64,000 bases of DNA from Phycisphaerae bacterium. Its GTDB lineage: Bacteria; Planctomycetota; Phycisphaerae; Phycisphaerales; UBA1924. Shown piece by piece: positions 46,786 through 56,328 of this stretch (position 1 is the first letter of the stretch; the number at the start of each line of letters is the position of its first letter). The stretch covers positions 124,001-188,000 of the forward strand of contig JAUIES010000001.1 in assembly GCA_030429705.1 (NCBI GenBank). Reading direction: 5' to 3'. Position numbers and translations under genes: made by a program. A model generated the notes under the pieces. The model was given only the letters and a program-made list of their open reading frames with translations, made no database searches and was not told the origin of the DNA.

Positions 46786-47448
46786 CTACGCCGCCAATCG
46801 GGCTTGGCTCGCCGTCGGTTCGGTGCCGAAGCTGAGGGTGGCGAGGTTGGATGGGCTGCTTCGGCCGCCGCGGCGCTGGGCGATGATGCGGTAGTGGACG
46901 CCGCGCTGGCCGGCGGGGACGGCGGTATCACGCCACGACTTGTCGGTCGTGGTATCGATAAGCGTGAACGGGCCGATCGTGCCGTCCGCGTCGACGAGGG
47001 CTCGCTCGACCGCGAAGGTCGTCCCCCCTTTGCGGGTGCCGCGCCACGCAACGAGCACGGTGCCGCCGGGTTCGAGGGTGGTGCTGACGCCGGTGGGCGC
47101 GGGCGGGGGGCCGAGCGGGGCTTTGGGACGATCGGGGGGGATGCTGGCGGCGGCATAGACATTGGGATCGTCCGTTGTGTCGGCATGGGCCTTGATCGCC
47201 CCCACCGCGGCGGAGGCCCGGGCGCGAAGGGCGGCGGCCTGCTCATGCAGCCGCAGCGTCGCGTCTTCGGCGGCTTGTCGCGCCTGTTCGGCGGCGAGGA
47301 GGGCGACCTCGGCTTCTTCGGCGAGCGCGGCGAGTTCGATGACGCGCGTTTCATCAAGCCCGATGGCGGCCGGGTCTTCGCCCCACGCCGGCAGCCGAGT
47401 CTGCATCCAGGTCATCAGCGTGCGATCGGATCGGGGCAGAACGGGCAT
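46786..47448 (-). CDS. Coiled-coil protein with C-terminal fibronectin-III-like domain
   Basis: 220 residues from the ATG at 47448 (AAGGAG upstream; the frame runs 24 codons further up). Residues about 30-95 are helical and Ala/Glu-rich (ALAEEAEVALLAAEQARQAAEDATLRLHEQAAALRAR split over two helices). After a Pro-rich linker, residues about 120-205 look like an FN3 fold (PTGVSTTLEP...VLVAWRG...FAVERAL...YRIIAQRRGG). No signal peptide, so probably cytoplasmic or intracellularly scaffolded. The gene is GC-richer than its neighbours, and the 21-bp repeat array lies 120 bases before its start. Confidence 0.65.
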   Translation of the reverse strand: MPVLPRSDRTLMTWMQTRLPAWGEDPAAIGLDETRVIELAALAEEAEVALLAAEQARQAAEDATLRLHEQAAALRARASAAVGAIKAHADTTDDPNVYAAASIPPDRPKAPLGPPPAPTGVSTTLEPGGTVLVAWRGTRKGGTTFAVERALVDADGTIGPFTLIDTTTDKSWRDTAVPAGQRGVHYRIIAQRRGGRSSPSNLATLSFGTEPTASQARLAA

Positions 47449-47567: not shown

Positions 47568-47819
47568 ATCGATGCGGCGGCCTGAAACATCGTTACGACA
47601 GCCTGAATCATCGATGACGAGCAGCCAAACATCGATGACGGGCCGCATGGAATCGATGTTTTGTCTCGTGGAAACGATGACCAACCGTCCGGGATCGATG
47701 CTTGATCGCCCGGGATCGATGAAATGCGGTCCGGCATCGATGCATGGCAGCATCGCATCGACAGGCGGTCGCCCCGCATCGAGGGACTGTCAACTTGGAT
47801 CGGTCCCATCGCCCGGCGG
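47568..47819. repeat. Degenerate 21-bp direct repeat array, 12 units, core ATCGATG
   Basis: ATCG-type cores begin at 47568, 47589, 47610, 47631, 47652, 47673, 47694, 47715, 47736, 47757, 47778 and 47799: a perfect 21-base period over 12 units. Seven cores read ATCGATG exactly (47568, 47610, 47631, 47652, 47694, 47715, 47736); the others are ATCGTTA, AACGATG, ATCGACA, ATCGAGG and ATCGGTC. The remaining 14 bases vary, but neighbouring units resemble each other. Every frame yields heptad peptides (SMxxxxx on the plus strand, S(M/I/F)xxxxx on the minus), so coding status cannot be told from this alone. It lies between two minus-strand genes. Confidence 0.85.
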
Positions 47820-47932
47820 CCCGACCCGCGGTCTGCCGCGCGTCGGGCTTTCGGGGAGGGGTGAACGACAACGGCATCGCCACCCGACGCGCCGAGGACG
47901 GCGGGTCGGGGCACCGGAGATGCCACACCTCG

Positions 47933-48406
47933 TCAGTGCTCGGCGGATGGTTCTTCGCCGCGCCCGCGTTCATGGTCGCAGGCCGGACATCGACCCGTGC
48001 TGCCGGACAGGTCGTCGCTGCGGGCAAGGCACGCGGCGGCGGACCTTCGGCGACAGGATCGGATGTGAACCGCCCAGAACACGCCGGTTAACAAACCGAG
48101 CGGGAGGACGAGCCAGAGAACGGGCACAAAGATCAACAAGGAGCCGGCGGAGCCCCGAGAGAATTCGCGTCGCCATGCCGGCAAGTTGGGGTACCAGCTG
48201 GTGTATACCGAAGTCGAGTCGTTGATCGTCCGATCCGCTGTCCCGACCCAAACACTCCCAAACACACCTTCGATCTCGATCTCCGTACCGCCAAGCCGAC
48301 CGCTGATGAGCAGCGTGGTCTGAAAGAGGCAAGTGAAGCCGAGCAGCAGCAACGCCGCCGCGAACGCGACCGTGCTGCCCCACCGCCATGTCAACAGCCT
48401 TCGCAT
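47933..48406 (-). CDS. Small membrane protein with degenerate C-terminal zinc ribbon
   Basis: 157 residues from the ATG at 48406 (28 in-frame codons upstream do not fit). Two transmembrane helices, at about 15-35 and 95-120, enclose an exported domain. The tail DDLSGSTGRCPACDHERGR resembles the planctomycete CxxCxYDLxGxxxxxCPECG ribbon, with the first Cys pair absent. It is divergent from a related membrane/zinc-ribbon gene 78 bases away. Function unknown. Confidence 0.55.
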   Translation of the reverse strand: MRRLLTWRWGSTVAFAAALLLLGFTCLFQTTLLISGRLGGTEIEIEGVFGSVWVGTADRTINDSTSVYTSWYPNLPAWRREFSRGSAGSLLIFVPVLWLVLPLGLLTGVFWAVHIRSCRRRSAAACLARSDDLSGSTGRCPACDHERGRGEEPSAEH

Positions 48407-48484
48407 CGTCAACCAGCCTACCGCCCGCCTTCGCCCCGCGCAATGCCATTTCAACATCCGGGACCCGGCTGTTACACTGTCTTC

Positions 48485-49306
48485 ATGCAAACGCGAGCAT
48501 TCTGGCTGCGACGGATCATCGTGTGCGCCATCCTCGGCGGCGTGACCGCGTGGCTGGTTGCGTGGGGGATTGTCGCGGCCGAATGGAAGGGCGTTGCCTC
48601 GTCAGACCTGCCAAACCAGCAATACGGCGTGGCGATCGTGGAACCACACCTCGTCAATCTCTATGAGCGGCGCTCCCCCACCACCCGGGTTCGCGAGTGG
48701 ATCGTGACTCAGCTTGATGAACGCATCGTGCCCGACGCTCCAACCTGGCGAGAAACGCTCGCTGACGAGGGACCAGACGCTGTACTGGAGCGTGTCCGCG
48801 CGTACAACGGTCAATCAACTGAGCCGGCACTTGATCGGTTTGCACAGGCTTTCGCGTCAAATCGCGTTGCTGGCCTGATCATCGATGAACAGGCGTACAT
48901 CATCAGAGAACGCCTGCACGGCTGGCCTTTCGCTTCAGTCGCCGAGATTCGAGCCGAGACTTTTCGAAGATTGAGCGGGGGGACATTTGGATCAGCCCCG
49001 GTGCGTTTTGACGATACCAAGACCGTTTCGATCCCCTGGTTGACCGGTCATGACCCGGTGTGGAATCTCGCTCGCCGAGGCAATCCGACGACCATCCAGT
49101 TCCCTTACCGACCTGACTGGCCTGGGCTTGCCGGCAACGCCGCGTTCTATGGGTTGCTGTGGGCGTTGCCCCTTATCGGGTTTCCGATCGTTCGCCGCCG
49201 AGCCCGCATGCGCAGGGCACGCTGCGGCTCCTGCAACTATGACCTATGCGGCACGACGAGCGGCGTGTGCCCAGAGTGCGGCCTCGAGTTCATGCCGATT
49301 GCATGA
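48485..49306 (+). CDS. Membrane protein with C-terminal zinc ribbon
   Basis: 273 residues from the ATG at 48485. One N-terminal and one C-terminal transmembrane helix flank an exported domain of about 190 residues. The tail reads CGSCNYDLCGTTSGVCPECGLEF, an intact CxxCxYDLxGxxxGxCPECG ribbon that is very common at the end of planctomycete membrane proteins. Domain order is the same as in the divergent neighbour. Function unknown. Confidence 0.7.
   Translation: MQTRAFWLRRIIVCAILGGVTAWLVAWGIVAAEWKGVASSDLPNQQYGVAIVEPHLVNLYERRSPTTRVREWIVTQLDERIVPDAPTWRETLADEGPDAVLERVRAYNGQSTEPALDRFAQAFASNRVAGLIIDEQAYIIRERLHGWPFASVAEIRAETFRRLSGGTFGSAPVRFDDTKTVSIPWLTGHDPVWNLARRGNPTTIQFPYRPDWPGLAGNAAFYGLLWALPLIGFPIVRRRARMRRARCGSCNYDLCGTTSGVCPECGLEFMPIA

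Positions 49307-54955: not shown

Positions 54956-56328
<1,373 letters not shown>

Follow-up and report, generated by a model that had tools for sequence, protein, structure and literature searches.

A 21-bp-periodic array upstream of an FN3-like gene in a Phycisphaerae bacterium, and arrays of the same period elsewhere in its genome and in other bacteria

Tandem repeats that keep an exact period while most of their bases vary raise the question of whether they encode a protein, act as RNA, bind a protein or merely result from slippage, and such an array was found in the window (the whole stretch of 64,000 nucleotides analysed here). All 12 units at 47568-47819 are in perfect 21-base register with zero indels, as the first-pass annotation had reported, and the ATCGATG core is exact in 7 of the 12; since the deviating units are 2, 6, 10, 11 and 12, the right-hand end of the array is the most degenerate. 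Identity is 0.53 at a lag of 21, 0.50 at 42 and 0.51 at 63, and is at most 0.33 at all remaining lags from 5 to 69. Paired cores at 21 bp (up to 3 mismatches) number 79 in the window versus 13.7 ± 4.2 in 100 dinucleotide shuffles, some of this excess falling outside the array, and an Rfam search of the whole window gave nothing at gathering score. The explanation we favour, with somewhat less than even confidence, is a cis-acting, non-coding role for the array as a row of helically phased, dyad-symmetric, operator-like sites located 5' of the FN3-like gene. Its main rival, which we regard as somewhat unlikely, is a neutral minisatellite, in which slippage with a preferred 21-bp step in tolerant intergenic DNA created the array and nothing binds to it. 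This rival is favoured by the resemblance between neighbouring units, which had also been noted in the first reading of the sequence and was borne out here (0.571, compared with 0.495 averaged over all pairs; p = 0.007 against shuffled unit order), with no significant effect in seven other arrays tested in the same way.

The features around the array are listed in Table 1. With the MPVLP start at 47448 as the start of the FN3-like gene, the distance of 120 bp to the array given in the first-pass annotation is correct, and this start is preceded by AAGGAGACC; on the other side, the end of the upstream neighbour (47933) is 113 bp from the array. The predicted fold of the FN3-like protein consists of a 60-residue helix and then an FN3 sandwich, with RLAA at the C-terminus. 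Neither this protein nor its upstream neighbour matched Pfam or NCBIfam, and the best 50 matches in a fold search with the FN3-like model were all FN3 domains or proteins containing them, so that the model, a long helix plus an FN3 domain rather than a DNA-binding fold, gives no sign of DNA binding, which weighs against the operator reading. The short GC-rich repeat beside the array shares 90% identity over 42 bp with a copy beside the C7:39.9k array, and has weaker matches in L484 and L485 (beside two partner arrays) and in L472. Among 26 aligned FN3-like proteins (the window gene at 46786-47448 and relatives), 22 end in AA, often LAA, which we take to recall the ssrA tail. Hydrophobic proteins with a C-terminal zinc-ribbon-like CxxC recur near arrays, both in the window (48443-49306 and 47933-48490) and at L031 and L070, with tandem copies at C7:624k.

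Table 1. Features around the window array, and host arrays that share units with one another
Feature	Position	Strand	Basis or remarks
FN3-like gene	46786..47448	-	ORF list; start and ribosome-binding site; fold prediction; paralog family
Leader, array to FN3-like start codon	47449..47567	-	AAGGAGACC beside start codon; any promoter inferred
21-bp array, 12 units	47568..47819	.	ATCGATG core, containing the palindrome ATCGAT, and 14 bases that vary
Short GC-rich repeat of dispersed type, next to the array	47877..47917	.	Sequence comparison
Upstream neighbour, hydrophobic protein with C-terminal CxxC	47933..48490	-	ORF list; description from sequence
Array pair	C4:205.8k (near FN3-like gene) and C4:1325k		77% over 243 bp
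Array pair	C7:752k (near FN3-like gene) and C7:623k		79% over 210 bp
Array pair	C7:303.5k (near FN3-like gene) and C5:354k		88% over 250 bp
Array pair	C7:415.5k (near FN3-like gene) and C4:1734k		77% over 274 bp

We scanned periods of 8-63 in the window and in 39 randomly placed 20-kb stretches of the host genome (780 kb, thus 844 kb with the window; 40 stretches were drawn and the one overlapping the window was excluded). Scores of at least 0.90 were obtained only at a period of 21 or a multiple of it (42 and 63), whereas other periods did not exceed 0.56. This restriction to 21 bp argues against the minisatellite, as does the fact that degenerate host arrays hold their register, although a lag-21 scan favours such arrays. 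The random host DNA contained five clear 21-bp arrays, approximately one per 156 kb, and about a dozen were found in the host genome in all, including those located via the core or via the gene; the core shared by several of these is biased because they were found via a TCGATG search, a bias that the random sample avoids. Units differ by locus, being GAATTGATCAATTC-based, TGCTCTGC-based, GAGCAATG-based or of other kinds, and the ATCGATG core is found in the window array and some further host arrays, while the remaining host arrays are built on other units. The C4:891k, C4:1325k and C7:623k arrays have no FN3-like gene nearby; the last of these contains 42-bp higher-order units, as may be expected of a minisatellite. 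Some host arrays are located between convergent genes according to our reading of the gene layouts, which weighs against promoter control. When 61 relatives were searched for three successive ATCGATG motifs (up to 2 mismatches), matches at 21 bp were found in 15 genomes and matches at the control periods of 24 and 18 bp in 9 and 8 genomes, respectively, and single matches are therefore mostly due to chance; clear multi-hit arrays are present in G000 (21 hits), G032 (9) and G019 (8).

We then compared the loci of the FN3-like family, which at an E-value of 0.001 has 12 matches in the host genome (including the query itself and one fragment), up to 44 matches per genome, and zero in 40 of the 61 genomes. 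Arrays were called at a score of at least 0.55 within 1.5 kb upstream, excluding low-complexity runs. In the first set (30 plus 22 loci and the window, duplicates removed, leaving aside the runs of low complexity at L450 and L463) a 21-bp array was present upstream of 19/49 FN3-like loci, distributed as 3/12 in the host, 7/11 in G023 (11 of its 44 members were examined) and 9/26 in other genomes. In the subset of 37 loci measured from the gene start, 19 have arrays, but as the loci omitted there mostly lack arrays, 19/49 is the fair count. The proximal end of the array is 66-511 bp before the FN3-like start in 18 of the 19 array-bearing loci, with some of the measured starts being imprecise (L464, L471, L443 and L458). 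In a second set from three further genomes, consisting of the best 30 matching loci for one query and hence non-random, 15/30 loci had an upstream array (8/8 for the first eight), and searching periods of 10-40 gave a single non-21 run at threshold (14 bp, at one locus). Downstream runs scoring at least 0.55 were found at 0/30 loci (weaker runs at 6 loci) and 1/22 loci (coiled-coil-like coding sequence; another reached 0.54) of the first set, and at 2/30 of the second, one of them coding-like. With the search extended to 5 kb and the threshold lowered to 0.53, 17/22 host and G023 loci had an upstream run, sometimes with genes intervening, versus two with a downstream run, one of which is coding-like. 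Upstream 21-bp arrays at FN3-like loci are thus far above the background of random host DNA and are rare downstream, and this bias towards one side of one gene family speaks against the minisatellite. A lack of repeats at homologous loci in relatives would, according to the first-pass annotation, have told against its reading, but 21-bp arrays are present at homologous genes there, with other sequences: two relatives of one G023 FN3-like gene (72% and 64% identical; close homologs, orthology unestablished) have an array 215-287 bp upstream with different units, a difference that does fit slippage.

Dyad symmetry of the units was tested against column-permuted units in 49 arrays (a set in which one locus, L457 and L474, is counted twice and a few runs look coding). 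The mean z was 1.59 (s.e. 0.25), with 22/49 arrays at p<0.05 and the window array at z 2.64 (p = 0.007). Such enrichment counts against a neutral minisatellite and fits the operator sites of a dimeric protein, although it is equally compatible with hairpins, and the 27/49 arrays without significant dyad symmetry weigh against the operator reading. So do the units themselves: the eight G023 arrays are mutually unrelated (1/28 unit pairs at p<0.05), which makes one common regulator unlikely and is in line with a minisatellite, and a shared motif, GCTCC, was present in 13/40 consensus units with p = 0.075 after correction, which is not significant (9 of the 49 units, being duplicates, partners or coding-like, had been removed).

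Plasmid iterons and multi-operator arrays consist of direct repeats approximately two helical turns apart, adjoining a gene. The window array resembles both in its exact 21-bp direct repeats and resembles operator arrays in its dyad-symmetric sites, but the units of the arrays differ between loci, and a Pfam scan of the eight proteins neighbouring the window array detected no replication protein or Rep family. Of the two DNA-level functions proposed in the first-pass annotation, the iteron is thus not supported, while the idea of multiple operators on one helix face has gained support from the restriction of strong periodicity to 21 bp and its multiples, from the dyad enrichment, and from the 20- and 21-bp but never 22-bp spacing in Alkalibacillus described below. 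In the mechanism we envisage, dyad-symmetric putative binding sites (in the window, around CATCGATG) would repeat every two helical turns, a spacing which would let a dimeric DNA-binding protein occupy one face of the helix cooperatively. The array is located 5' of an FN3-like paralog, which it would most likely control or insulate. Judging from a few loci, whole units seem to be gained, lost or exchanged, with sequence turning over while period and place persist.

A search of named genomes for four TCGATG motifs at 21 bp gave at least 118 stretches in many phyla, some of them coding or simple repeats. Alkalibacillus salilacus has 14 arrays with 78 units, which have AACTCGATG(G/A)(A/T)A(A/T) in common, together with approximately 8 free bases. 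Same-strand motifs are spaced at 21 (90 cases) or 20 bp (14 cases), never at 22 bp, and then at sums of these, with single cases at 13, 18, 31, 33, 51 and a few larger distances, so not all are multiples of a turn; in its relatives the spacing is 21 (32) and 20 (5) or 21 (76) and 20 (1), with 22 again absent. Simple ORF calling placed 5 of 18 A. salilacus arrays between convergent genes, 6 between tandem genes, 7 at contig ends and none between divergent genes, and this 0/11 for the classifiable arrays is unlike promoter control. At the six loci shared with a relative (40 units), identity was 0.85 in the core, 0.68 in the body of the unit and 0.82 in the flanks, with the body exceeding the core at 1/6 loci (0.92 versus 0.88); 11 arrays were tried to obtain these six usable alignments, and choosing sites by their match in one species may slightly favour the core. 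Core conservation above the body argues against a minisatellite, but the core is hardly above the flanks, which supports that rival and, together with the one exceptional locus, weighs against the operator reading; alignment gaps between the relatives consist of whole units, again as expected from slippage. Two other members of the family have a different motif, TTCGAYGGCT, with the same 21-bp period. The Alkalibacillus arrays show that such an architecture can occur in non-coding form and with helical spacing, and we use them as an analogy for the planctomycete arrays, common descent not being implied. Among the other matches, Sporolactobacillus spathodeae (L125, L168 and L174) has very long 21-bp arrays, some open in one frame, with 412 matches to three cores genome-wide, and G441, a Thermoanaerobaculia MAG, has 200 matches to three TCGATG cores at many loci and in several unit families.

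Four pairs of host arrays share a unit over 210-274 bp with 77-88% identity, and in each pair one member is located 0.2-2.8 kb from an FN3-like gene while the other has none nearby (Table 1). The similarity is restricted to the arrays, with the exception of one 39-bp match. The C7:212k array was aligned with C7:623k only, and gave no match. In a more specific version of the operator reading, to our mind rather unlikely, each FN3-like locus would have its own phased dyad array, read by a dedicated partner, with the matching array elsewhere as a remote target; position and period would be passed on even as the address sequence is replaced in a satellite-like manner, and the two-turn architecture would have arisen or spread in several phyla. 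Should the operator reading in general hold, the arrays would represent a dispersed element of bacteria whose defining features are spacing and symmetry, not sequence, and for that reason would be missed by ordinary motif and homology searches. The FN3-like paralogs of a single genome would provide a ready-made set of phased arrays with which the use of helical phasing by proteins in bacterial chromosomes could be examined, and the arrays a model of satellite-like turnover under a fixed period.

The same pairs, and the similar units at three loci in G431, could also result from arrays being copied between loci by some activity and then persisting, as in REP-like repeats, which we consider quite unlikely. 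The units of the C7:303.5k and C7:415.5k pairs have a single partner each when searched genome-wide, the G023 arrays are unrelated to each other, and the window array, although its profile is like that of C4:891k, aligns with it over just 39 bp, in a pair that was found through the core. No transposase was noticed among the neighbours listed. REP and BIME elements, of which a linked RAYT transposase is a hallmark, are palindromic intergenic repeats at gene ends, from which the arrays described here differ in their exact 21-bp period.

That the arrays act as hairpins within a transcript is very unlikely. The minus strand of the window array has an MFE of -116.7 (z -4.8), the order of its units matters on either strand (0/150 permutations equally stable), and 26 arrays have a mean z of -1.6 versus column permutation, but no such effect of unit order is seen across arrays as a whole (mean z 0.01, 19 arrays), within-unit covariation is not significant in 5/6 arrays, and there is no RNA reason for a 20/21-bp spacing. 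The window array can be folded as one long imperfect hairpin, unlike other arrays on average, and the long hairpin was dropped as a general property, as were compensatory changes inside units, significant in just 1/6 arrays.

The heptad-repeat protein suggested in the first-pass annotation is scarcely credible, and coding by the window array is unlikely: 21 bases do equal seven codons, and one frame or more is open in all of eight host arrays, but these frames differ relative to the TCGATG core; of the six host arrays with that core, three have the TCG-ATG frame open and the other three have it interrupted. The six frames of the A. salilacus arrays contain 10, 66, 18, 11, 24 and 19 stops in 546 codons, and although two are thus stop-poor, the best is open in 8/14 arrays and none in all 14, while 20-bp steps disrupt any frame. 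By our own count, with approximate extents, about 29 of the 118 TCGATG stretches among the matches listed have no open frame.

We found no description of such 21-bp arrays in the open-licence literature on planctomycetes. The nearest described kinds that we found are STAR elements and TAACTGA repeats, both with a different period and motif. The STAR elements of Staphylococcus are likewise dispersed intergenic direct repeats with a conserved motif, variable locus-specific spacers and a function that is unknown, but their motif is a GC-rich 14-bp T(G/A/T)TGTTG(G/T)GGCCC(C/A), its copies separated by 40 bp or more of spacer, and there is no two-turn period (PMC3532100), so that the window array, with its 21-bp unit and ATCGATG core, does not belong to them as described there. 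The TAACTGA heptamer repeats of Beggiatoaceae, Cyanobacteria and Bacteroidetes are also direct repeats scattered between genes in distant phyla, many of them just upstream of genes, but differ by having 7-bp units of one fixed sequence, mostly no more than several bases from a start codon in the main species (PMC4679880); the period of 21, the other core and an identity of 0.26 at lag 7 separate the window array from these. A heptamer repeat of another sequence, TGCCCAA, is present in 5.6 copies at 54956-54994 of the window.
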